A stretch of 64,000 bases of DNA from Acidobacteriota bacterium (lineage in GTDB: Bacteria; Acidobacteriota; Thermoanaerobaculia; UBA5066; Gp7-AA6): assembly GCA_020199905.1 (NCBI GenBank), contig JAIVJS010000071.1, forward strand, positions 177,501 to 241,500, given 5' to 3'. Both the position numbers and the translations under genes were made by a program. Shown piece by piece: positions 27,766 to 61,527 of this stretch. Below the pieces are notes generated by a model. The model did no database searches. It saw nothing but the letters and a program-made list of their open reading frames with translations, and had not been told where the DNA came from. Numbering within the stretch: position 1 is the stretch's first letter; every line of letters starts with the position of its first letter.

Positions 27766-29979
27766 CTAGAGAAGCTCGGCGGACTCGATCGAGCGGCGGA
27801 ACGCGGATCGCCAGAGCGCAGTCAGATCCCGGAGGTCTTCGTCGATCGGCGGCGCGTCGCCTCGCGCGATGCGCAGGCGCGGGCCTCCGATGCGGCCCAG
27901 CATCACGAGAGGCACGCCGGCGGCGGCGGCGCGTTCCGCGATGTTCCGCTCCTCGCCCGACGCAAACGACACGACGGCCCGGCCGGTGCTCTCGCCGAAC
28001 AGGAGGGCGGAATGCCGAACGAACCCGGGGACCTCGATGTCCGCGCCGAGGGCGCCCGCCATGGCGCTTTCGGCGAGCGCGACGGCCAGCCCTCCATCCG
28101 CCACGTCGTGGGCCGAAGAGAGAGATCGGCTCGCCGCGAGATCGAGAAGGAGCTCGCAGAGCCGGCGCTCGGCCGCCAGATCCACCTCCGGGCACGGGCC
28201 TTCGTCCCGTCCGCGCACGGTGCGCAGGAACTCACTGCCTCCGAGCTCGTCGCGCGTCTGCCCGAGCAGAGCCACCCGATCGCCATCCCGGCGGAAGGCC
28301 ATCGCGACGCGGAGGTCCACGTCCTCGAGCAGCCCCACCATCCCGACCGTCGGGGTCGGGGGGATCGCGCGGCCGTCCGTCTCGTTGTAGAAGGAGACGT
28401 TTCCGGACACGACCGGGATGTCGAAGGCGCGGCAGGCGTCGGAGATACCGCGCACCGCCGCCTCGAACTGCGCCATGACGTCCGGCTTCTCCGGGTTGCC
28501 GAAGTTCAGGCAGTCGGTGATCGCGAGCGGCCGTCCTCCGGTGCAGGAGATGGAGCGCGCGGCCTCCGCGACCGCGATCGCCGCCCCTCGGTACGGATCG
28601 AGCGCGCAGAAAAACGGGTTCACGTCCGACTTCAAGGCCAGCGCTCTGGCGGTTCCCTTGACCCGCACGATCGCGGCGTCGCCTCCGGGCCGCTCGACCG
28701 TGTTGGTGCCCACCATGTGGTCATACTGGGTCCAGATCCACGACTTTTCGGAGACGTTGGGGGAGGCGAGGATCCGGCGGAGGCACGCGCCGTAATCCGA
28801 GGGTTCCGGCTCCTCGGGCCACCGCGGAGGCGGCGGCGCGGCGGCCGGACGCCTCGGCCGGTCGTACACGGGCGCCTCGTCCGCCAGCGGCGCCGCGGGC
28901 AGGTCTGCTACCTTTTCGCCCCCGAAGAACAGCACGACACGCCCTGTGTCTGTCACCTTCCCGATCTCGACCGCGTCGAGCTCCCACTTGCGGAAGATCG
29001 CGAGCACCTCGGGAAGGCGATCGCTCCGGCACACCAGCAGCATCCGCTCCTGGGATTCCGAGAGCATGATCTCGTACGGCGTCATGCCGGTCTCGCGGGC
29101 CGGCACCTTCGAGAGATCGATCTCGACTCCGCTGCCGGCGCGTCCCGCCATCTCGAACGTCGAGGAGGTGAGGCCCGCGGCTCCCATGTCCTGGATGCCG
29201 ACGACCGCGTCCGTCGCGAAGAGCTCCAGACACGCCTCGAGGAGCAGCTTTTCCGTGAACGGGTCGCCGACCTGCACGTTCGGCCGCTTCTGAGAGGTCT
29301 GGTTGCCGGCAAACTCTTCGGAGGCCATCGTCGCGCCGTGAATTCCGTCGCGGCCCGTCTTCGAGCCGACGTACACGACCGGATTGCCCGCGCCCTCCGC
29401 CCGCCCCAGGAAAATCCGGTCGGCCCGGACGATGCCGGCGTTGAAGACGTTGACGAGGATGTTGCCGTTGTAGGCGGAATGAAACGTCGTCTCCCCTCCG
29501 ACCGTCGGGATCCCCATGCAGTTGCCGTAGCCCGCGATGCCGCGCACCACCCCGTCCACGATGTGCTTCATGCGGGGCGCGTCGAGGGAGCCGAAGCGCA
29601 GCGAGTTCAGGGACGCGATCGGCCTCGCGCCCATGGTGAAGATGTCGCGCAGGATCCCCCCGACCCCCGTCGCCGCGCCCTGGTAGGGCTCGATGAAGGA
29701 CGGATGGTTGTGGGACTCCATCTTGAAAGCCACGGCGAGCCCGTCGCCGATGTCCACCACGCCCGCATTCTCGCCGGGGCCCTGGATGACGCGAGACCCG
29801 GTGGTCGGGAACTTCCGAAGATGGAGCCGGGAAGACTTGTACGAGCAATGCTCGCTCCACATGGCGGAGAAGATCCCGAGCTCGACGTAATTCGGCTGCC
29901 GGCCGAGGATCTCCAGAATCCGCCCGTATTCCTCCGCGGAAAGGTTGTGTCCGGCGACGAGCTCGGGGGTGATCGCCAC
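27766..29979 (-). CDS. purL: Phosphoribosylformylglycinamidine synthase subunit PurL
   Basis: Large subunit of the three-part FGAM synthase (with PurQ and PurS at 38.4-39.4 kb). 737 aa, standard for the small PurL type. Visible: [85 protein letters not shown], and in the second half [16 protein letters not shown] and [21 protein letters not shown] at 29979 aligns with family starts. An open frame extends to 30,150 without homology. Confidence 0.94.
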
Positions 29980-30135
29980 GGAAGACGGTGATGGAGCGGG
30001 GTGACGAGAATCCGCTGGAGGACCGGCCACGCCTCGCGAACTTATCACCAGCCACCCCACAGGGCGATCCCGGCGCCCGGGCCGACCTGAGATTCCCCCG
30101 CCACGCACCGCATCCTCTTTCGCCGGGCGCCGCCA

Positions 30136-30141
30136 TATAAT
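30136..30141 (+). promoter_or_regulatory. TATAAT -10 element of the STAS operon
   Basis: Perfect TATAAT 11 bases before the ATG at 30,153; no clear TTGACA at the -35 position. Initiation about seven bases downstream would give a leader of about five bases, and there is no Shine-Dalgarno, so the STAS mRNA may be almost leaderless. Confidence 0.45.
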
Positions 30142-30152
30142 CCGCCGCACGC

Positions 30153-30488
30153 ATGCCCCTCTCGGTTCGGCAGGATGGCCCGGTCACGATCGTGACCGTC
30201 GACGGCGACCTCGTCATCGGCGAGTCGGAGGCGGCGTTCAAGAAAACCATCGCGGGTCTCCTCGAGCAAGGGCAGATCAACCTTTTGATCGACATGACCG
30301 GCGTGCGGTTCCTCGACAGCTCCGGACTCGGAGCGCTCGTCCGCGCGATGACGACCTCACAGAATGAGGGCGGTCAGACGAAGCTGCTCCGCGCGGGCCC
30401 GCAGGTTCGAAGGCTCCTCGAAATGACCAAGCTCGACTCCGTCTTCGAGATTTACGACGACCCTGAAAAGGCCGTCATGAGCTTTTAG
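30153..30488 (+). CDS. STAS-domain anti-sigma-factor antagonist
   Basis: 111 aa single STAS domain: [41 protein letters not shown] with the phosphorylatable Ser pair at 56-57, and a C-terminal helix [16 protein letters not shown]. Family role: releases a sigma or other partner from a kinase-type anti-sigma factor according to phosphorylation state. No partner kinase lies beside it. Instead it leads the plus-strand unit with the GAF-adaptor hybrid and the M50 hybrid, so it may tune this locus. Divergent from purL. Confidence 0.88.
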
Positions 30489-30517
30489 GAGAGGTTCTGG
30501 CGGACGAGCCCGGAGAC

Positions 30518-32896
30518 GTGGCGGGAAGCGGCACGGCCGCTTCGGAACTGGCTGCCTGTGAAACTCTGTCCCAGCTCTCCGCGTGGCTCGCGCGCTGGAG
30601 CGCCGATCTCACCGGAGCAACCGCGGCGCTCTCGTGGACCCCCGATCCGACTCATCCTCTGCTCGCCTGCACGGGCATCGCCGGAGACGGGGGGCGGAAA
30701 TCCAGCCGCCGCACGATCTCCCGGCAGGACCCTCTCGCCCAGGAGATCCTGCGGGACCGCGAACCCATCGCCATGGCGCCGTCGGAGGTTCCCGCGCGCC
30801 TGGCCGCGTGGACCGGGGATCCTCCCCCCGGGTCGTGCCTCGCCGTGCCGGTGTCGCGCGCGGAGGAAGTCGTCGCGGCCCTCCTGCTTTTCTTCTCCGA
30901 ACCGCCGAGACCCCACGAGGTCCTGACCCGTCTCGGCGGCCTGCTCGAGCAGGCGGCACCCCGGTTCGAGCGCGCGCTGCGCGGCGAGCGAAAGACGGCC
31001 GGAATGCGGCAGGCGATCGAGAGGCTCACGGCGCTCTACGACCTGTCCAAGGCGTTCGGCTCGACGATCGACCTCTCGGAGCTCACCCGGATCATCGCTC
31101 GAAAGGCGGTCGACTTCGGGACGGCCGAGGTCGGCTCCATCTGGCTCTTTGGAGAAGACGGACAGGAACTGGTCCTCGGCGAGACCGTGGTCAACGAGAA
31201 CTACGAGATCGCCTCCGCCCCGGCCGCCGTGGGGGCGAGCGTCGCGGGAGACGTTCTCGCCGACCGCAAGGCCGTCCGGCGCAACGCGATACCCGCCGGC
31301 GATCCGGCGTCGCAGGAAGCCGAAGGCTTCGTGGTCCGGTCGCTCCTCGCCGTGCCGCTGGTCGAGGGCCACCAGTCCGTTGGAGCGCTCACTCTCGTCA
31401 ACAAGCGGGGCCGCAACCCGGAGTTCACGTCCGAGGACGAGGAGCTCATCGGGGATCTGGCAAGGCAGGCGGTCCGGGCGTTGCACAACGCGCGGCAATA
31501 CGAGGCTGAAAAAAAGGTCCAGGAGCTCGACGCGCTTCTGACCGTCAGCCGCGAGATCACGGCCACCCTCGACCTCGACAAGGTCATGAAGAGGATCGTG
31601 AACGCGACGGCGGCGTTGATCTCTTACGATCAATGCGCGATCGCGATCATGGACCGGGGCAAGCTGCGCCTCGGCGCGATCTCCGGCACTCTCACGGTCG
31701 ATCGTAAGGATCCGCGGATCCACCTGACCGAGCAGCTCCTCGAATGGGTCTTCTTCAGCGGCTCGGACGTCGCGGTGATCCAGGGCGACGACGGGAAGAT
31801 CCAGGCCGATCGGCCGGAGACCGAGGAGAAGTTCCGGGGATTCTTCGAGCGGGCGGGCTTCCGTTCGTTCCACGGGCTTCTCTTGAACGACGAAGAAGGA
31901 AAGCTCGGCATCCTCGCCTTTTTCCGGAAACGCCCGCTCATCCTGGACGAGGACAAGCGAGACCTCCTCGCGATCCTGGTCAACCAGGCGACCGTCGCCG
32001 TGCGGAATGCCCAGCTGTACAAGCAGATCCCCCTGCCCGGGTTCCTGAGACCGCTCGCCGAGCGCCGCCGGAAGCTCCTCGAGATTCCGAGGAGGCGGCG
32101 GCTCGCCTGGACGGTCGGCACGGCCGCCCTGCTCCTCTTTCTGTTCGCCGTGCCCTGGCGGATTCGCGTGGGCGGTCCGGCGCGAATACTGCCCGGGCGC
32201 CGCGCTGCCGTCACGGCGGGGGTCGATGGCACGATCCTGTCCGTGGTCCGCCACGAAGGAGATTCGGTGGCCGCCGGCGAGGTGATCGCGACGCTCGACC
32301 CGGAGACCTACCGCTCCGCGGTCGCGGACGCGCGCGCCGGCTATCAGATCGCCGAGAGCGACGTCGCGAAGTTCCAGGAGGCCGGTGATTCCGCGGCGAT
32401 GTTCGAGGCCGGCTCACGACGCGACGAGATGAAGGCGAAACTTTCCTTCGAGGAAGACCGCTTCGAGCGCACGAGCCTCCGGGCGCCCGTCGCCGGCACC
32501 ATCGTGACTCCCCGGATCGAAGAGCGCGTCGGCCAGCTCCTGACGAAAGGCACCGAGCTCTGCGTCATCGCCGATCTCGGCACCGTGCTGGCCGAGGTCG
32601 CCGTGCCGGAGATGGATGCCACACTCATCCGGCCCGGCCAGTCCGTCGCCCTGAAGCTCAACCCGTATCCAACCCGGACCTTCCGCGGCACGATCACGCG
32701 GCCGGGCTCACACGTCCGACAGGACGGGGACGACAGCTTCGTGATCGCGGAAGCGAGGATCGAGCACCCGGAGGGACTACAGACCGGCGTGCAGGGATCG
32801 GCGAAAGTGTCCGGCGAACGGGCTCCCATCGCGGTCGCCATTTTTCGAAAACCCGTTCGCTGGTTCTGGAAGAAGATCTGGCCGATCCTGCCTTGA
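30518..32896 (+). CDS. GAF-domain sensor fused to HlyD-type membrane-fusion adaptor
   Basis: 792 aa. An atypical GAF-like region is followed by two clear GAF domains (about residues 170-330, LYDLSKAFGSTIDLSELTRIIARKAV; and 350-505, LLTVSREITATLDLDKVMKRIV). Then come a basic stretch and one transmembrane helix (about 528-545, WTVGTAALLLFLFAVPW). The extracytoplasmic adaptor has lipoyl/barrel-sandwich motifs ILSVVRHEGDSVAAGEVIATLDPE and LRAPVAGTIVTPRIEERVGQLL, and a beta-barrel. The cytosolic sensor thus sits on a periplasmic adaptor. Start: GTG at 30518 has no good ribosome site; an in-frame CTG at 30497 has AGGAGAGG ahead. TTGA overlap with the next gene. Confidence 0.85.
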   Translation: MAGSGTAASELAACETLSQLSAWLARWSADLTGATAALSWTPDPTHPLLACTGIAGDGGRKSSRRTISRQDPLAQEILRDREPIAMAPSEVPARLAAWTGDPPPGSCLAVPVSRAEEVVAALLLFFSEPPRPHEVLTRLGGLLEQAAPRFERALRGERKTAGMRQAIERLTALYDLSKAFGSTIDLSELTRIIARKAVDFGTAEVGSIWLFGEDGQELVLGETVVNENYEIASAPAAVGASVAGDVLADRKAVRRNAIPAGDPASQEAEGFVVRSLLAVPLVEGHQSVGALTLVNKRGRNPEFTSEDEELIGDLARQAVRALHNARQYEAEKKVQELDALLTVSREITATLDLDKVMKRIVNATAALISYDQCAIAIMDRGKLRLGAISGTLTVDRKDPRIHLTEQLLEWVFFSGSDVAVIQGDDGKIQADRPETEEKFRGFFERAGFRSFHGLLLNDEEGKLGILAFFRKRPLILDEDKRDLLAILVNQATVAVRNAQLYKQIPLPGFLRPLAERRRKLLEIPRRRRLAWTVGTAALLLFLFAVPWRIRVGGPARILPGRRAAVTAGVDGTILSVVRHEGDSVAAGEVIATLDPETYRSAVADARAGYQIAESDVAKFQEAGDSAAMFEAGSRRDEMKAKLSFEEDRFERTSLRAPVAGTIVTPRIEERVGQLLTKGTELCVIADLGTVLAEVAVPEMDATLIRPGQSVALKLNPYPTRTFRGTITRPGSHVRQDGDDSFVIAEARIEHPEGLQTGVQGSAKVSGERAPIAVAIFRKPVRWFWKKIWPILP

Positions 32897-35088
32897 GCGC
32901 ACTCAGACCCACGAAGCTTCTCGCCGCCGGCAAGCCCGGCGAAAGCGTCAAGGCCCTCGCGGCCCGCCACGGACCGCCCGAGCCGCGTCCCTCGCTGCGC
33001 AAAGACCTGACCATCCGGAGGCAGGTTCAGCTGGGCGAGGTGATGTGGATCGTCAAAGACCCCCGGGAGATGGCGTTTTACAGGTTCAAGGAAATCCAGT
33101 GGCGTCTCATCCACCTCTTCGACGGCTCGCGCACGCACTCCGAGATCCTGGCCGAGTTCAACCGCCGCGCGGGCCGGAACCCCGTCGACCTGGCTATGGT
33201 GCTCGAGTGGGACGAGCTTCTTCGCCGGATGGATCTCATCGAGCTGACCGCCGCCGAACGCAGCCTCACTCTTCTCGACAAGTTCCGGACGCTGCGCGAA
33301 GAGACCGCGGAGGCGAAGTCCGAGGGGTTCAACCCGTTCTTCATCATGTTTCACGTCCTCGACCCGGACCGGATCCTGACCCGGACGGTCAAGTACGTGC
33401 GCTGGATCTGGTCTCCGCCCATGGTCGCGCTGACCTGCATCGCGTCGCTCTGGACCGTTGGCGTCTTCATCCGGAACTGGCAGCCGATCTGGGCGGGCAC
33501 GATGGACCTGTACCATTTCTTCGGCAAGCCGCTGCTGGACGTCCTCCACTTCTTCTTCATCCTCTCGATCATCGGAGCCATCCACGAATTCAGCCATGGC
33601 TACGTTTGCAAGATGTATGGAGGAGAGGTTCATGACATCGGTCTGGTTCTCTTCTATTTCACTCCGGCTTTCTACTGCAGCACCTCGGACTCGTTCATGT
33701 TCCCGAGCCGATGGCAGCGCCTCTGGGTGACGGTCGCGGGCATCTACGTCGAGGCGATCATCTGCAGCACCGCCACCGCTCTCTGGCTCCTGTCCTATCC
33801 CGATTCCTTCCTGCACCAGTTCGCCTACAAGACGATGCTCCTCACCGGATTCTCGACGATCTTCTTCAACATCAACCCGCTCATCAAAATCGACGGCTAC
33901 TACGCGCTCTCGAGCGTTCTTCAGCTGCAGGACCTCCGGGAGGCTTCGTTCAAGCTCCTGAGCACGGGCTTCCAGAAGTACGTTCTGAGGCTCCCCGTCG
34001 AGATACCGGCGATGACCAGGCGGAAGCGGCGTCTGTGCGTGGTCTATGGAGTGCTCGCCGCCGTCTACACCGCCTCCGTCATGTTCGTGATCGGGAAACT
34101 CTTCAACAACCTCTACACGAAGTATTTCCCCGACATCGCCGCCTTCCTTCTCATGCTGACCCTCTTCTATCTGTTTCGGAAGCGGCTCCGTAAGGCCGCG
34201 CGGATCGCAAAGCTCTTCTACCTGGACAAAAAGGAGATCGTCATGTCGCCCCGAAGCCGGTGGCCGCTCATTGGATCTGCGGTCGCTCTGGTGATTTTGC
34301 TCGCCGTTCCCTGGACTGCCCGGACGATCGAGGCCACGTCCGTACTGAAGCCGCGCGCACAGCTGACCGTCCAGGCTCCGGAGGAGAGCGTTGTGACCGA
34401 CGTGTTCGTCCGCGAAGGGGACCTGGTCGGGAAGGGGCAGCCGATCGTCCGGCTGGGCAACCCCGCGCTCGAAGCGGATGCGAGCCGGTTTCGCTCCCAG
34501 GAGGAACGGTTCACGAAGAAGTCGCACGCCGATCGGGCCGCCTCGAACGCCGGACTCGCCTTTCAGTCGGGCAGCCGCGCGCTGGCGGCGCAAACGGCCC
34601 GTCAGACGACCGAATACCGGCAGGGGTTCCTGCTCGTGAGGAGCCCGATCGCCGGGCGGGTGCTGTCGCCTCGCATGCAGGACCTTCAGGGCCGATCCGT
34701 GCCGGCGGGATTCGCGCTCGCTCGAATCGGCGACTGCCGGCGGATGGTGGCCGAAGCGGAAGTGTCGGAGCGGTTCCTCGAGTACCTGAAGGCCGGCGCG
34801 CCCGTGAAGGCGCTCATCATGACCCGTCCCATGGAGTCGTGGCCGGGTTCGATCGCCTCCATCTCTCCCGCGACAGTGGAGCAGCCGCTGACCGCCGCCG
34901 CCGGCATCGATCCCCGCCTCCCCTCACAGAAGCCGGACCGTTTCGTCGCCCTCGCGGTCTTCGAAAACACGGATGGAATGCTTCTCCCGGGGGCGCACGC
35001 CACCTTGAAGATCCGGTCCGCGCGGGCGTCCTATGCCTCCCGCATGTTCGACGTGCTCTGGCGCTGGCTTCGAACCATCGTCTGGTAA
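32893..35088 (+). CDS. PqqD-like domain + M50 site-2 protease + HlyD adaptor hybrid (YydH-like)
   Basis: 731 aa, three parts. Residues about 35-115 (LRKDLTIRRQVQLGEVMWIVKDP, FKEIQWRLIHLFDGSRTHSEI) look like a PqqD/RRE-type peptide-binding domain. Residues 150-450 are a polytopic M50 metalloprotease with HEFSH at 231-235 and the third zinc ligand in NPLIKIDGYY (about 327-336). Residues 460-731 form a HlyD-like adaptor (SVVTDVFVREGDLVGKGQPIVRLG; LVRSPIAGRVLSPRMQDL). YydH-type proteins handle modified peptides in other bacteria. TTG start overlaps the upstream stop (TTGA), so the two adaptors are made together. A small repeat protein is encoded 50 bp downstream on the other strand. Confidence 0.87.
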   Translation: MSALRPTKLLAAGKPGESVKALAARHGPPEPRPSLRKDLTIRRQVQLGEVMWIVKDPREMAFYRFKEIQWRLIHLFDGSRTHSEILAEFNRRAGRNPVDLAMVLEWDELLRRMDLIELTAAERSLTLLDKFRTLREETAEAKSEGFNPFFIMFHVLDPDRILTRTVKYVRWIWSPPMVALTCIASLWTVGVFIRNWQPIWAGTMDLYHFFGKPLLDVLHFFFILSIIGAIHEFSHGYVCKMYGGEVHDIGLVLFYFTPAFYCSTSDSFMFPSRWQRLWVTVAGIYVEAIICSTATALWLLSYPDSFLHQFAYKTMLLTGFSTIFFNINPLIKIDGYYALSSVLQLQDLREASFKLLSTGFQKYVLRLPVEIPAMTRRKRRLCVVYGVLAAVYTASVMFVIGKLFNNLYTKYFPDIAAFLLMLTLFYLFRKRLRKAARIAKLFYLDKKEIVMSPRSRWPLIGSAVALVILLAVPWTARTIEATSVLKPRAQLTVQAPEESVVTDVFVREGDLVGKGQPIVRLGNPALEADASRFRSQEERFTKKSHADRAASNAGLAFQSGSRALAAQTARQTTEYRQGFLLVRSPIAGRVLSPRMQDLQGRSVPAGFALARIGDCRRMVAEAEVSERFLEYLKAGAPVKALIMTRPMESWPGSIASISPATVEQPLTAAAGIDPRLPSQKPDRFVALAVFENTDGMLLPGAHATLKIRSARASYASRMFDVLWRWLRTIVW

Positions 35089-35115
35089 AGAAAAGGCCCC
35101 GCGCGCGCGGGGCCT
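35087..35115 (-). terminator. Rho-independent terminator of the octapeptide-repeat gene
   Basis: Perfect 22-bp palindrome at 35,094-35,115 (core GGCCCCGCGCGCGCGGGGCC). Read on the minus strand it is followed by TTTTCTTT. It lies 22 bp after the stop of the repeat gene and touches the TAA of the M50 gene, so it serves the minus strand. Confidence 0.85.
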
Positions 35116-35137
35116 CGAGATTCGACAGGAAAGAGCC

Positions 35138-35485
35138 TTACTCGACCTGGCTGCGAAGCGCCTCCTGGTCCCCGGCGCGCAGCGCTTCTTGATCGCCCGC
35201 CCGAAGAGCCTCCTGGTCCCCCGCGCGCAGCGCTTCCTGATCGCCCGCCCGAAGCGCCTCCTGGTCCCCCGCGCGCATCGCTTCCTGATCGCCGGCCCGA
35301 AGCGCCTCCTGGTCACCGACGCGCAAAGACGACTGGTCGCCCATGCGGGAGGTCTGCTGGCCGGGAGCCAGGGCGATGTTGTTGCCGAGGCTCGACACCC
35401 GGATCTCTCCCATGGTCTTTCCCGTGGCCGCCTTGATCTTCGCCTTCTGCTCCTCGGTCAAAGTGATTCTGACTTCCTTTGCCAT
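35138..35485 (-). CDS. Small octapeptide-repeat protein (candidate secreted or processed peptide)
   Basis: 115 aa, no known family recognised. The N-terminal 47 residues are leader-like: MAKEVRITLTEEQKAKIKAA, then TGKTMGEIRVSSLG and NNIALAPGQQTSR, with no signal peptide or membrane helix. Residues 48-111 are exactly eight octapeptides of type (M/V/A)GDQ(E/S)(A/S)(L/M)R, the last five identical AGDQEALR, then SQVE. There is no Cys, Trp or aromatic residue in the repeats. Strong Shine-Dalgarno AGGAGGT six bases before the ATG, a sigma-54-type promoter 30-44 bp upstream, and its own terminator. Flanked by an M50/HlyD unit and a two-component/HlyD unit, so export or processing by them is plausible but unproven. 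Confidence 0.8.
   Translation of the reverse strand: MAKEVRITLTEEQKAKIKAATGKTMGEIRVSSLGNNIALAPGQQTSRMGDQSSLRVGDQEALRAGDQEAMRAGDQEALRAGDQEALRAGDQEALRAGDQEALRAGDQEALRSQVE
35153..35344 (-). repeat. Eight 24-bp coding repeats arranged as 48-bp dimers
   Basis: The octapeptide repeats are encoded by two alternating synonymous versions: one uses GAG-CAG-GAC-GGG for Glu-Gln-Asp-Gly, the other GAA-CAG/CAA-GAT-GGC. The true DNA period is therefore 48 bp (about four dimers), with degenerate units at the 5' end of the gene. Confidence 0.85.
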
Positions 35486-35514
35486 CGGTCACCTCCTCTT
35501 TGTCATCCGGCATC

Positions 35515-35529
35515 GCAAACGCGGGGCCA
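35515..35529 (-). promoter_or_regulatory. Sigma-54-type (-24/-12) promoter of the octapeptide-repeat gene
   Basis: On the minus strand TGGCCCCGCGTTTGC fits TGGCAC-N5-TTGC with one mismatch and an exact GG-N10-GC spacing. A start near 35,504 would leave a leader of about 19 bases containing the AGGAGGT ribosome site. The adjacent NtrC-type regulator carries the GAFTGA loop needed to activate such a promoter. Confidence 0.6.
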
Positions 35530-35590
35530 CATCGATGAGAACGCAAACTCCTGCGTAAGTCGTTGATCTCGTGGGGGCGCACGAAAAAAG

Positions 35591-35626
35591 AGAAAGTCGG
35601 CGATCACCGAGCGCGGATGACTTTTC
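35591..35626. promoter_or_regulatory. Candidate upstream activator site (inverted repeat)
   Basis: AGAAAGTC (35,591-35,598) and GACTTTTC (35,619-35,626) form an imperfect inverted repeat about 65-110 bp upstream of the -24/-12 element, the usual distance for enhancer sites of NtrC-type activators. The match is short, so this is tentative. Confidence 0.3.
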
Positions 35627-35652
35627 GACCCGCGGCTGAATTATTCACCGGT

Positions 35653-37032
35653 CTAAAGGGAGTATTTCCGGCAGAGATACTTGATCTGGTTCCCGTCGAG
35701 CTTCAGACGGCGGGCCGCCTCGGCCTTGACGCCCCCCGCCCGGGCGATCGCCTCGGAGAGCAGCTTCCTCTCGAAATCTTCGACCGCCCCCGCGAACGAA
35801 ACGGGCGAACCCGCAACCGGGACCGCCACCGTCGCCCGCACGCCGCGCGGAAGGTCCTCCAGTCCGATCAGGTCCCCCTCGGAAAATAGAACGAGCATTT
35901 CGACGACGTGCTCGAGCTCGCGCACGTTGCCGCGCCAGGCGTGAGAGACCAGCCGCTCCAGAACTCCTTCCGCGAGCCGGGGCTGCGCCTTGCGATGCCG
36001 GGCGGCGTATTTGGCGAGGAAATGCTCCACCAGGACCGGGATGTCCTCTTTCCGTTCGCGCAGCGGCGCGATGCGAAGGGGAATCGTGCTGATCCGATAG
36101 AAGAGATCCTCGCGGAAGCTCCCCGCCGCCACGCGAGCTTCCAGGTCCTCGTTGGTGGCGGAGATCAACCGGAAGTCGACGGGTATGCTCCGGCGCCCGC
36201 CGAGCCGGTCGATCTCGCGGGATTCCAGGACGCGCAGGAGCTTCGATTGCACGGCGGCGGACAGGGTGCCGATCTCGTCAAGAAACAGCGTGCCGCCCTG
36301 CGCCATCTCGAAACGGCCGGCGCGGGACGCGTTGGCGCCCGTGAAGGCGCCCTTCTCGTGCCCGAACAGCTCGGATTCCGCCAGCGTCTCCGGCAGCGCC
36401 GACCCGTTGACGGCGATGAAAGGGCGGGCCCGCCGCGCGCTGCGCTGGTGGATGGAGTGCGCGACGAGCTCCTTGCCGGTGCCGCTCTCTCCCTGCAGCA
36501 TGACGGTCGCATCCGATGGCGCGACCTTCTCGATTTCCCGGAAGAGCCGGAGCATCGGCGCGCTCTGACCCACGAGCCGGTCGAAGGAGCTCTCCTCGGT
36601 CTGCTTTTTCTTCAGTTCCCGGTTCTCCGCGAGGAGCCGTCGCCGCTCGAGGGCCCGTTTCAGGATCACCATCAACTCCCCCGCGTCGACGGGCTTTCGG
36701 AAAAAGTCGAACGCGCCGAGCTCGATCGAGCGCAGCGCCGCCTGGCGGTCTTCCTCGCCCGACATCATCACGACCGTCGCCTCGGGGTTGCGCCGCCTCG
36801 CCTCGGAAAGAAGCTGGAAGCCTTCCTCGACGAGGCCGGAGGGAGGCAGCCGCAGGTCGAAGAGATAAAGCTCCGGGTCCGATTCGAGCAGCGCCCGTGC
36901 CTCGACCGCGTCCCGCGCGCCGCGCACCTCGAAGGCCCCTTTGAGCGACCACTTCAGCTGCTCGAGCAGAAAGGGATCGTCCTCGACGACGAGAATGGTT
37001 CCCGGCGCCGGCGGGAGCGCCGAATCGATCAC
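35653..37032 (-). CDS. Sigma-54-dependent response regulator (NtrC family)
   Basis: 459 aa. Receiver domain with acidic pocket VVEDDP (17-19), phospho-acceptor D59 (LFDLRLP) and K113. The AAA+ domain has Walker A GESGTGKE (181-188), the sigma-54 contact loop GAFTGA (228-233) and FLDEIGTLS. The Fis-type helix-turn-helix ends KAEAARRLKLDGNQIKYLCRKYSL. GTG start at 37032 overlaps the kinase stop (GTGA). The C-terminal end and the overall pairing resemble the PrsR-type regulators known from PEP-CTERM systems (inference). The octapeptide gene with its -24/-12 promoter lies 167 bp downstream. Confidence 0.92.
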   Translation of the reverse strand: MIDSALPPAPGTILVVEDDPFLLEQLKWSLKGAFEVRGARDAVEARALLESDPELYLFDLRLPPSGLVEEGFQLLSEARRRNPEATVVMMSGEEDRQAALRSIELGAFDFFRKPVDAGELMVILKRALERRRLLAENRELKKKQTEESSFDRLVGQSAPMLRLFREIEKVAPSDATVMLQGESGTGKELVAHSIHQRSARRARPFIAVNGSALPETLAESELFGHEKGAFTGANASRAGRFEMAQGGTLFLDEIGTLSAAVQSKLLRVLESREIDRLGGRRSIPVDFRLISATNEDLEARVAAGSFREDLFYRISTIPLRIAPLRERKEDIPVLVEHFLAKYAARHRKAQPRLAEGVLERLVSHAWRGNVRELEHVVEMLVLFSEGDLIGLEDLPRGVRATVAVPVAGSPVSFAGAVEDFERKLLSEAIARAGGVKAEAARRLKLDGNQIKYLCRKYSL

Positions 37033-37567
37033 CGTGCCTCCGGAGCGGGCGTGGCCGGGATGATGCCGGGGAAATTCAACCGCACCACCGTGCCCCCGCC
37101 GGGCTCCGAGAGCACGCGCATGGTCCCCTGGTGGAACCGGACGATCTGGTGTGCCGTGGCCAGTCCCAGGCCGACTCCGTCCGGCTTGGTCGTCTCGAAG
37201 GCGCGGAAGAGGCGGTCGCGCACGAACTCGCGCGACATTCCCGCGCCGTTGTCGATGATCTCGACCGGGCGCGCCCGATCGCCCTCTCCGCGACGTCGCG
37301 CAGAACCTCGTTCAAGTCGAGGCCGACCTTGATGAGGACGGAATCTTCATGCGCCGAGAACCGGCCCACGATGCCGTCCAGCCGATCGACGGTCGACCGC
37401 AGGAGCTCGGCCACGGCGCGCTTGAACTCCGGGTCGTCGTAGTGCTCTTCGAGGTTCGAGAGAAGAAGCTCGAGACGGAAGCCCATGTTCTTGATGTCGT
37501 GAATCAGGACCCGGTCGAGAGTCGAGCGCAGCTGGGAGGGACCGCGAGGGCGGCGCGCGTTGCTCAC
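37029..37567 (-). pseudogene. Histidine kinase with internal deletion (N-box lost)
   Basis: The first part (from GTG 37567) is a DHp-like domain with the phospho-His in LIHDIKNMGFRLELLLSNLEEHYDDPEF, resembling PrsK-type kinases, and no sensor domain. After DLNEVLRDVAE the frame breaks near 37,285. The rest, PVEIIDNGAGMSREFVRDRLFRAFETTKPDGVGLGLATAHQIV (G1, F and G2 boxes), is in another frame and ends with GGGTVVRLNFPG. The ATP-lid N-box block that should lie between them, about 85 residues, is missing. Both ends keep their 4-bp overlaps with HlyD and the regulator. Either a real inactivating deletion or an assembly gap. Confidence 0.8.
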
Positions 37568-38313
37568 CGATTCGGGTCGGCCGGAAGCCTCACCTGGACG
37601 GCGAGGCCCGGCCGGAGAACCCTCCGCCCGGAGTCCCGTCGCACCCGGATCAGGACCTGAAACGTTCCACTGGCGGCGTCCACCGTCGGACTGATGAACT
37701 CGATCGTGCCCGTCGTGCGCGCTTCCGGGAAGCTGACCGGCGTCACCTCGACGGCTTCGTTCCGGCGGACATTCAGCAGCTCCTTCTCCGGAAGATAGAT
37801 CCTCGCGAGCAGCGGCTCGAAGGCCGTGATCTTGAAGAGAGGGATGTTCTGAACGTCCACGACCTTCTGTCCGACCCGCGCCGACTTTTCCGTGACCATT
37901 CCCGGGAAGGGCGCGCGGATGACGGCGTAGTCGCGAATCGCCTTCGCCTTCTCCCAGGCGGCCACCGCAACGGCGTGCCGCGCCCGTTTCTCGTCCAGGT
38001 CAGCCTTGCTCGAGATCCCGCCGGCGCTCAGGGTCCGCGCCCTCTCGAGCTCGGCCTTCTTGAGCTCCATGTCTTCTTTGGCCTGCTGCACGTCCTGAGC
38101 GAACTCGCGCAAGTCGAGCGTTGCGAGGGGTTGACCCCGCGAGACGCTCGCGCCCCGCTCGACGTGGATTGTCTCGATGACGCCGGTGATCCTCGAAGTG
38201 ACCGTCACTTCCTGGTCCACCATCAGGTGGGATGGATACATCGTCCCGGCCGGGACGCTTTTCGGCGAGCCCGGTCCCATCGCCAGAAGGATCAGCAAGA
38301 GCGGCGTGGTCAT
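37564..38313 (-). CDS. Periplasmic adaptor (HlyD/RND membrane-fusion protein)
   Basis: 249 aa. N-terminal hydrophobic signal ([14 protein letters not shown]), lipoyl half-motifs [30 protein letters not shown] and [24 protein letters not shown] flanking a short coiled-coil hairpin ([22 protein letters not shown]), then a beta-barrel [26 protein letters not shown]. It has no own inner-membrane pump beside it. It is the first gene of the kinase/regulator unit and the third adaptor in the locus, suggesting a trans-envelope assembly. Confidence 0.85.
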
Positions 38314-38398: not shown

Positions 38399-39094
38399 TC
38401 AGCGGGCCGCGAGGGCCGTCACCGCCGATTGGAACATCTTCAGACCCTGGTCGTTGCCGAGAAGCGCCTCGGCGCAGCGATCCGGGTGCGGCATCAGACC
38501 GACCACGTTGCGATCGCGGCTGCAGATGCCGGCAATCGCCCGGTCCGCCCCGTTCGGGTTGGCGGCGTCCGCGACCGCTCCTCGCTCGTCGCAGTACCGG
38601 AACACGACTCGGTCCTCGCGCTCGAGCTCGTCGAGGACGGAAGGAGGCGCCGTGTAGTTGCCTTCCATGTGCCCGATGGGCATCCGGACCACGGATCCCT
38701 CGTCGTAGAGTCGGGTGAACGGCGTCTCCGAGCTCTGGATCCGCAGGTGGACGTCGCGGCAGACATATCGCAGATCGCGATTGACCCGCATCGCTCCGGG
38801 GAGAAGACCCGCCTCGAGCAGGACCTGGAACCCGTTGCAGATTCCGAGCACGGGACCGCCCTGCCGCGCGAAACGACCCACGCTCTCCATGACGGGGGAG
38901 AACCTCGCGAGCGCGCCCGCCCTCAGGTAATCGCCGTATGCAAAACCGCCGGGAATGATGACCGCGTCGGCGCCCTTGAGGTCGGTCTCGGCGTGCCAGA
39001 CGTACTCCGCCTCGCAGCCGAGGAGCTCGCGCACGACGTGCTCGCAGTCCTGGTCGCAGTTGGAGCCCGGAAAGACGACGATCGAGAATTTCAT
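38399..39094 (-). CDS. purQ: Phosphoribosylformylglycinamidine synthase, glutaminase subunit
   Basis: 231 aa class I glutaminase that feeds ammonia to Pur[44 protein letters not shown], the nucleophile Cys in [19 protein letters not shown], and the His/Glu pair in [16 protein letters not shown] are all present. Start is the internal ATG matching family N-termini; the open frame continues 22 codons upstream into low-complexity sequence. Lies about 110 bp after purS, separated by a heptamer-repeat block. Confidence 0.93.
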
Positions 39095-39168
39095 GACGCG
39101 CGGCGGGGGCGAAGGGGGCATCGCGAAAGGCGAACGTCGGGAGTCCTCGTCCTCCGACACGTTCCGGG

Positions 39169-61379: not shown

Positions 61380-61398
61380 CCGGGAACGATTCCCGATT

Positions 61399-61514
61399 CC
61401 CGATCGAGTTGACCGCGGAGGACCGCGGCCGTCTCGCTCCCCCTGGTCGCTCGGCTCCCGATCGAGTTGACCGCGGAGGACCGCGCCCGTCTCGCTCCCG
61501 TTGGTCGCCCGGCC
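61399..61514. repeat. Two tandem copies of a 58-bp unit
   Basis: CCCGATCGAGTTGACCGCGG begins both copies (61,399 and 61,457); the units differ at only a few positions over 58 bp. They fill most of the gap before the heptosyltransferase I gene. Non-coding as far as can be seen. Confidence 0.8.
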
Positions 61515-61527
61515 CCCGGCTTCCGGC

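Follow-up and report, generated by a model that had tools for sequence, protein, structure and literature searches.

Here we report a candidate maturation and export module for small proteins in a 64,000-nucleotide stretch of DNA from an Acidobacteriota bacterium (contig JAIVJS010000071.1), referred to below as the window. The locus (positions 30153-38313; contig C85 of genome G000, 3.9 Mb in 115 contigs) comprises plus-strand genes for a STAS-domain protein, a GAF-HlyD adaptor and an M50-HlyD hybrid, and convergent minus-strand genes for a repeat protein of 115 amino acids (aa), an NtrC-type regulator, a damaged kinase and an HlyD adaptor. All 14 genomes found to carry a hybrid of the window type also encode a small protein with the same conserved leader; the two genes share a contig in 11 of them, and in the other three (G003, G004 and G172) they lie at contig ends. 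The module may be an undescribed route by which small proteins are matured and sent out. We consider it probable that it couples export to intramembrane leader removal guided by a recognition element (RRE) of ribosomally synthesized and post-translationally modified peptides (RiPPs), with neither an ABC transporter nor a modifying enzyme among the module proteins.

The module and its small leader-bearing gene

The features of the locus are listed below.

30153..30488, plus strand: STAS-domain protein of 111 aa, anti-sigma-antagonist type (Pfam PF01740, 5.7e-21)
30518..32896, plus strand: GAF domains and HlyD adaptor, 792 aa (Pfam)
32893..35088, plus strand: hybrid of PqqD/RRE-like domain, M50 site-2 protease and HlyD adaptor, 731 aa (Pfam Peptidase_M50, 7.4e-9, and HlyD)
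32974..33312, plus strand: predicted PqqD/RRE-like part of the hybrid, residues 28-140 (AlphaFold2 and Foldseek)
35116-35093, minus strand: terminator-like intrinsic hairpin with T tail, 3' of the repeat gene (hairpin scan)
35138..35485, minus strand: small protein of leader and octapeptide repeats, 115 aa, the proposed substrate (open reading frame (ORF), repeat analysis and alignment)
35363..35485, minus strand: conserved leader, residues 1-41, MAKEVRITLTEEQKAKIKAATGK... (leader alignment and profile)
35138..35325, minus strand: AGDQEALR-type octapeptide repeat core (repeat and periodicity analysis)
35514..35529, minus strand: sigma-54 -24/-12 type element TGGCCCCGCGTTTGCG, score 13/15, with the ATG 44 nt downstream
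35653..37032, minus strand: NtrC-type response regulator with receiver, sigma-54 AAA+ and Fis helix-turn-helix domains (Sigma54_activat, 4.2e-69; TIGR02915, 441.5 bits, cut-off 502.6)
37044..37567, minus strand: damaged histidine kinase, in two pieces that differ in frame (NCBIfam weakly PrsK, 39.8 bits)
37564..38313, minus strand: third HlyD-type adaptor, 249 aa (Pfam HlyD)

Pfam searches confirmed the STAS, GAF-HlyD, M50-HlyD, NtrC-type regulator and third HlyD genes where an earlier note on this DNA had placed them. The histidine kinase of that note is present as an ORF with a weak link to PrsK, but its two parts are in different frames and some 53 residues are lacking (163 aa versus 233-255 aa in class relatives) and gave no Pfam match; the gene is either broken in this genome or misassembled. 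The STAS protein is also 111 aa long in the class relatives where it was seen, and GAF-HlyD shows 50-60% identity to seven aligned relatives.

Among 100 class-level genomes, the window genome included, the hybrid was found in 10 (E <= 2e-197; split over two contigs in G043), the same 10 that encode the leader, and the other 90 have neither (Fisher test 6e-14, a value that ignores relatedness); two of these 90, G046 and G095, carry a distant hybrid. A leader profile run on 148 class genomes, in the first 100 of which the hybrid was sought, gave no convincing match beyond the same 10. Gene order and orientation in nine class relatives are as in the window, as far as the contigs reach; in G003 and G004 the hybrid sits at the end of one contig and the leader gene at the end of another, a pattern to be expected if the repeats break the assembly.

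Beyond the class, a leader profile built from class sequences alone matched 28 outside-class genomes at E <= 0.1 among 297 genomes of the phylum. Reading covered 13 loci, four inside the class and nine outside it, the latter leaving aside 19 genomes with matches of E 9.5e-4 or weaker. Four were judged genuine by eye; among those discarded was an 800-aa protein that looked FtsK-like on reading. The four accepted homologues belong to G375 (SALASK repeats), G172 (AAKGLK repeats), G396 and G403, and a class-only hybrid profile detected the hybrid in all four (530-586 bits), while giving adaptor-half matches only in the control genome G005. The hybrid adjoins the leader gene in three of the four, and both lie at contig ends in G172. 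A later profile search found both genes in eight of the 297 genomes, a recovery that is not independent for the four outside-class homologues, which the later profiles include. The earlier note had suggested looking for leader-bearing small genes near such hybrids and had named either partner without the other as contrary evidence; no leader gene was seen in a genome lacking the hybrid, each window-type hybrid has its leader gene, and more distant hybrids are without this leader.

The leader, to which 47 residues had been ascribed, is indeed a conserved shared N-terminus, but it extends over only about 41 residues (LTEEQKAKIKAATGK in the window). Twelve positions are invariant in 12 class leaders, including L9, T10, Q13, K14, K16, K18 and G22, and M1, L9, T10, Q13 and G22 are invariant in 15 leaders, the distant four included. 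The octapeptide array reported previously is real: the window gene has a 48-bp period (3.6 copies, 92% match) and its product, which ends in VE, a period of 8 equalled in 0 of 300 shuffles. The core unit varies while the leader is kept, with AGDQEALR, EEGLR, SGKSL, VAAPR, AAKSMR, TAARS, SALASK and AAKGLK among the units, which have 5, 6 or 8 residues and occur in up to 23 copies; cores span 20-145 residues with a net charge from -16 to +28. Periodicity was equalled in no shuffle of 300 for 16 of 21 small proteins, in one for G018 and in nine for the contig-cut G003; the proteins of G396, G403 and G213 are not periodic. The proposed partnership between the hybrid and a repeat protein holds for the leader gene, but the core need not repeat (G396, G403). 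The best explanation is that the core is free to diverge and the leader is the part kept by selection. A fixed tag on freely replaced tandem repeats offers a natural experiment in the divergence of low-complexity proteins. Two additional leader genes occur outside the module, at G006:C51 and G004:C96 (the latter with a shortened leader), both in genomes with the hybrid. The G004 paralogue (L125 9893-10252) has the first 15 leader residues only, fused to SGKSL-type repeats, and is perhaps a decaying copy.

No PEP-CTERM family was among the matches of 12 small proteins, and no anchor family was matched in the small-protein and module profile searches. A pentapeptide-repeat fold for all arrays was rejected: pentapeptide families match two of the 12 small proteins, and L165 weakly, below the cut-off, and the window repeat of 8 residues does not fit the Rfr-fold pattern [STAV][DN][LF]xx. 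Matches to the repeat half in other genomes were set aside as apparently compositional.

The -24/-12 promoter is specific to the small gene. The window element TGGCCCCGCGTTTGCG scores 13/15 (shuffle p ~0.01), and elements of at least 13/15, a score reached by 1.4% of random 200-nt windows, precede 17 of 21 small genes; G002 has two genes, each scoring 11, and the remaining exceptions are the G004 orphan, with 12, and G213, with 10. Such elements were rejected for the other module genes (0 of 19 starts, best score 12). The hairpin scan gave three terminator-like sites in the stretch, with about one expected; in keeping with the earlier note, the repeat gene is flanked by a promoter element and a terminator-like hairpin of its own, and a second hairpin (35610-35597) lies between it and the regulator. 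We give practically no credence to the alternative that the repeat gene is an incidental low-complexity ORF: high-GC repeats can give spurious ORFs, and weak FliH-like matches look compositional, but the pairing, the conserved leader and the promoter element already contradict it.

The M50 hybrid and the proposed export route

Residues 28-140 of the hybrid are predicted to form three strands followed by helices (AlphaFold2, mean predicted local distance difference test score 83.5). The best Foldseek matches in the Protein Data Bank (PDB) are structures of TbiB1 with leader peptide (5v1u/5v1v; probability 1.00, E 0.006), followed by a sactipeptide enzyme, the ThcOx oxidase and a lasso protein B1 with leader, and none of the matches falls below E 0.001. 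In its predicted fold the N-terminus of the hybrid resembles RREs whose structures were determined together with leader peptides. The PqqD-like domain that had been assigned here stands as a predicted fold, and PF05402 (PqqD) matches three of 12 aligned relatives (best 9.3e-4), but the window protein itself gave no Pfam match for PqqD; an alignment profile meets TbiB1 at no better than E 0.34. The M50 motifs are clear, with H231, E232, H235, D334 and G335, the catalytic residues among them, invariant across 23 sequences. The HlyD half is clear as well, the top structure matches of the hybrid being adaptor folds. Pfam searches of the seven module proteins revealed no ABC domain, modifying enzyme, radical SAM match or second protease; the rest of the genome was not searched for ABC domains.

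We propose that this locus serves to produce, mature and export a single small protein. Its kinase and NtrC-type regulator would switch the sigma-54-type promoter of the small gene, a control suggested by the element, the regulator and their neighbourhood. The RRE-like domain, which lies at the N-terminus of the hybrid and presumably in the cytosol, would bind the leader of about 41 residues, as the predicted fold, the pairing and the daptide precedent suggest. By analogy with the daptide RRE-peptidase described below, the hybrid should bind and clip its leader, the M50 site-2 protease making its cut perhaps close to the LGxN junction. The fused adaptor suggests that export takes place in the same complex: the HlyD parts of the hybrid, GAF-HlyD and the separate HlyD could join into an adaptor assembly through which the core is passed outward, with an outer channel that is probably of the TolC type and encoded elsewhere (no such channel was sought). 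More speculatively, STAS and GAF may gate the complex. If the cargo leaves without an ABC transporter, the energy source becomes a testable question.

Several observations weigh against this route. The RRE match is one of predicted structure, its best Foldseek E being 0.006, while at the sequence level the window protein shows no significant match, and no transporter ATPase was found by Pfam among the module proteins. SecA matches, whose sequences were not individually checked, look like a single SecA in each of 21 genomes out of 22 (17 with the module and five without; G018 gave no match), unlike three proteobacterial loci with a SecA-like ATPase, and a SecA paralogue as the export motor was rejected on this count. 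Site-2 proteases usually need a membrane segment in the substrate, and none was seen in the small proteins by reading alone, with no predictor used. The window kinase is damaged, and the cores of G396 and G403 are not repetitive. Beyond the class the module is changed: in the search used, G375 and G403 gave no STAS match, and G396 gave a divergent STAS and, within its stretch, no HlyD. Genome G213 has the adaptors, the hybrid (427 bits) and the regulator, and a recognisable leader gene and promoter were not found there. These module differences, together with G213, slightly lowered our confidence in the proposed route. The slot between hybrid and regulator in G213 holds a 34-codon Lys-rich candidate only, with no -24/-12 element (L166 11362-11502).

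Site-2 proteases often act in signalling, and the hybrid could instead be a regulated intramembrane protease of a signalling pathway, with the small protein as its regulator and not its cargo. The STAS, GAF, kinase and regulator of the module would suit such a role; we nevertheless judge it improbable, as it is mostly the leader that is conserved, the remainder being replaced from genome to genome, and the protease is fused to an adaptor, with two further adaptors in the module. A different product of the same machinery is also conceivable, in which the repeats form a multi-core precursor cut into 5-8-residue signals or antimicrobials. The size and number of the repeat units would fit this, as would several near-identical tiny peptide genes by distant hybrids (31 aa, three and four copies; 19 aa, three copies), by which the dosage of a short product may be multiplied. 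This reading is rather unlikely, given that no second protease was found among the module proteins, that no shared cut site is obvious among the units (SNSPL lacks a basic residue) and that two cores are not repetitive.

Relation to known maturation, secretion and regulatory systems

The earlier note held that the module would differ from known RiPP systems. The module proteins gave no ABC or radical SAM match, but the system stands closer to established RiPP logic than was held, because the available text of PMC10036551 describes, for daptides, fusions of RREs to a site-2 protease, with small ORFs close by that carry the motif ELExMEAP. In the same text the daptide leader is removed by the RRE-dependent intramembrane peptidase MpaP, and leader variants and RRE removal are tested on MpaB rather than on the peptidase (PMC10036551). 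The hybrid resembles MpaP in having an RRE, in the window by predicted fold, N-terminal to a site-2 protease and small precursors nearby, and the MpaP family model NF041824 matches its residues 49-428 (166.2 bits, below the 300-bit cut-off). The window type differs in its fused HlyD, its other leader and its tandem-array core; neither the ELExMEAP motif nor the C-terminal Thr of daptides is present (leader LTEEQKAKIKAATGK, C-terminal VE), and no Dmp-forming decarboxylase, aminotransferase or methyltransferase was found among the seven module proteins, the flanking ORFs having been read, not profiled. The sequence ELEERIAP, similar to the daptide motif, occurs beside some distant hybrids.

The three HlyD-type adaptor domains of the module are shared with type I secretion, whereas the dedicated ABC transporter of type I and peptidase-ABC export is absent from the seven module proteins, to which that search was confined. 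The YydH/LiaK epipeptide proteases (NF058609) are likewise M50 proteins named for maturing a small peptide; their model matches at 44.8 bits, far below the cut-off of 225, and the window type differs in its fused adaptor and in the lack of a radical SAM match among the module proteins. PrsK/PrsR of PEP-CTERM bacteria (TIGR02916/TIGR02915) provide sigma-54 control of exported-protein genes. They resemble the window regulator (441.5 bits) and kinase (39.8 bits), but both matches are below cut-off and the 12 small proteins matched no PEP-CTERM family.

Distant hybrid clades and giant-protein loci

Hybrid matches were found in 48 of the 297 phylum genomes: eight of the window type, nine of a family designated f24 (eight full; G391 cut by a contig end), G213, and 30 with distant hybrids only. 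The eight f24 hybrids (521-602 bits) lack the window leader, and each has a nearby small gene starting MxxQKKSL, a pattern without matches in the other loci scanned; these proteins carry repeats such as LAPNK, SNSPL, LSKQIS and LAESK, and their promoters score 13-15 in all eight. Three f24 stretches examined have the small gene between hybrid and regulator, HlyD between GAF-HlyD and hybrid, a divergent STAS gene, and no kinase that we could find.

Small proteins with LE[EKQ]RIAP or LExRExP motifs are encoded next to some of the more distant hybrids. Partner peptides were found in 14 of the 30 genomes with distant hybrids only, 12 by a profile (A9) and two by reading, the other 16 not being fully examined; none was found within 1.5 kb of the distant hybrids of L150 and L152. 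Profile A9 matched 14 of 297 genomes, with a hybrid on the same contig in 13; since seven genomes supplied the profile, the independent count is six of seven, the exception being G005. A search for the LExR pattern in 198 loci, many of them fetched with hybrid or motif, gave as extra matches a probable antisense ORF in L163, and L194 (G361:C39), where a hybrid was not looked for. Sigma-54-type elements before LExR peptides were rejected (0 of 10, best 11), and a literature search on LEERIAP found nothing related. Hybrids of family f42 are adjoined by tiny peptide genes of 19-23 codons (L153 14-322, L151 4093-4206), encoding MQTEIEILExRENPVIVWT in three near-copies and also MQTEIEVLETRETPGILWGGKGR. 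A 31-aa LEKRIAP peptide gene stands in three and four tandem copies by the hybrid (L144 133-489, L145 3838-4319), and three different small LEERIAP proteins with Gly/Asn/Pro-rich tails are encoded upstream of another (L167 8017-8666).

In a tree of 43 hybrids, all 14 LTxxQK rows fall on one side of a branch with support 81/81. The leader labels require 12 changes versus a shuffled mean of 25.6, a value as low in 0 of 200 shuffles; LExR changes five times and QKKSL twice, so these are not clean single groups. L147 (G272) was labelled as having none seen, although A9 matched beside its hybrid.

A tblastn search of plasmids gave 72 records, and five loci were opened from among 20 matches listed. 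All five combine a hybrid with HlyD-type neighbours, and L173 has by Pfam a GAF-HlyD and a weak PqqD match, below the cut-off; the combination of GAF-HlyD, PqqD-M50-HlyD and separate HlyD seen in the window was Pfam-checked in part on the proteobacterial side. These hybrids differ from the window type in sequence (~23-28% identity), and four of the five loci have 12-39 kb cargo genes annotated as LEPR-XLL, calcium-binding or LamG-like. Three of the four giants have LEPRFLL, LEPRVLL or IEPRILL near the N-terminus, and the fourth has none in its first 90 residues. A further difference is the SecA-like ATPase in three of the five and TolC in three; the SecA matches point to no such second ATPase for the window type. 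No NtrC regulator or repeat microprotein is annotated in these loci, and the HlyD of L176 lacks a GAF match. The SecA-like ATPases near the hybrids are short, with DEAD, cross-linking and P-loop domains (L173 10093-12048, L174 10174-12087, L172 10026-12047), and two of the three are annotated as prepilin peptidase. In two loci (L174 5696-6013, L175 5744-6037) the gene of a DUF3467 protein separates the giant gene from the first HlyD gene.

These giants bring in another use of the same machinery, in which the array would have a structural role at the surface or in the matrix, as a polypeptide comparable to, but smaller than, the cargo of those four loci; the available part of PMC3162934 also links sigma-54 to exterior functions. 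The cores are small for a scaffold, no anchor family was matched and the net charge varies widely, and we regard a structural product as rather unlikely. On a broader scale, we suggest tentatively, at somewhat less than an even chance, that RRE-M50-HlyD hybrids form the centre of a so far unrecognised class of export systems, one that would unite leader recognition, intramembrane leader removal and a periplasmic conduit in one polypeptide replacing the ABC transporter. Each clade would read its own leader type (LTxxQKxxIKxATG, MxxQKKSL, LExR/LEPRxLL), and the cargo would range from 19-residue peptides and tandem-repeat microproteins to the proteins of genes of up to 39 kb. If this is true, RRE-M50 fusions and giant-protein loci, both poorly described, would be joined under one leader-guided logic, and a search for a shared N-terminus beside a hybrid would be a route to unannotated small exported peptides. 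No study of PqqD-M50-HlyD hybrids, including those of giant-protein loci, was found in the literature searched, a coverage outside which most subscription journals fall.

The window locus is flanked by ORFs named by eye as purL (27766-30150) and purQ (38399-39160), neither of which was found in the stretches fetched around the module in nine class relatives. Flanking ORFs, read by eye, are mostly unlike between relatives, some being common to close ones such as G001 and G002. LemA-like and M48-like genes, also named by eye, adjoin the module HlyD in two window-family genomes (L048 1941-4661, L058 13751-16510). Elsewhere in the window, a 58-bp unit is repeated in 2.1 copies with 92% match at 61398-61518.

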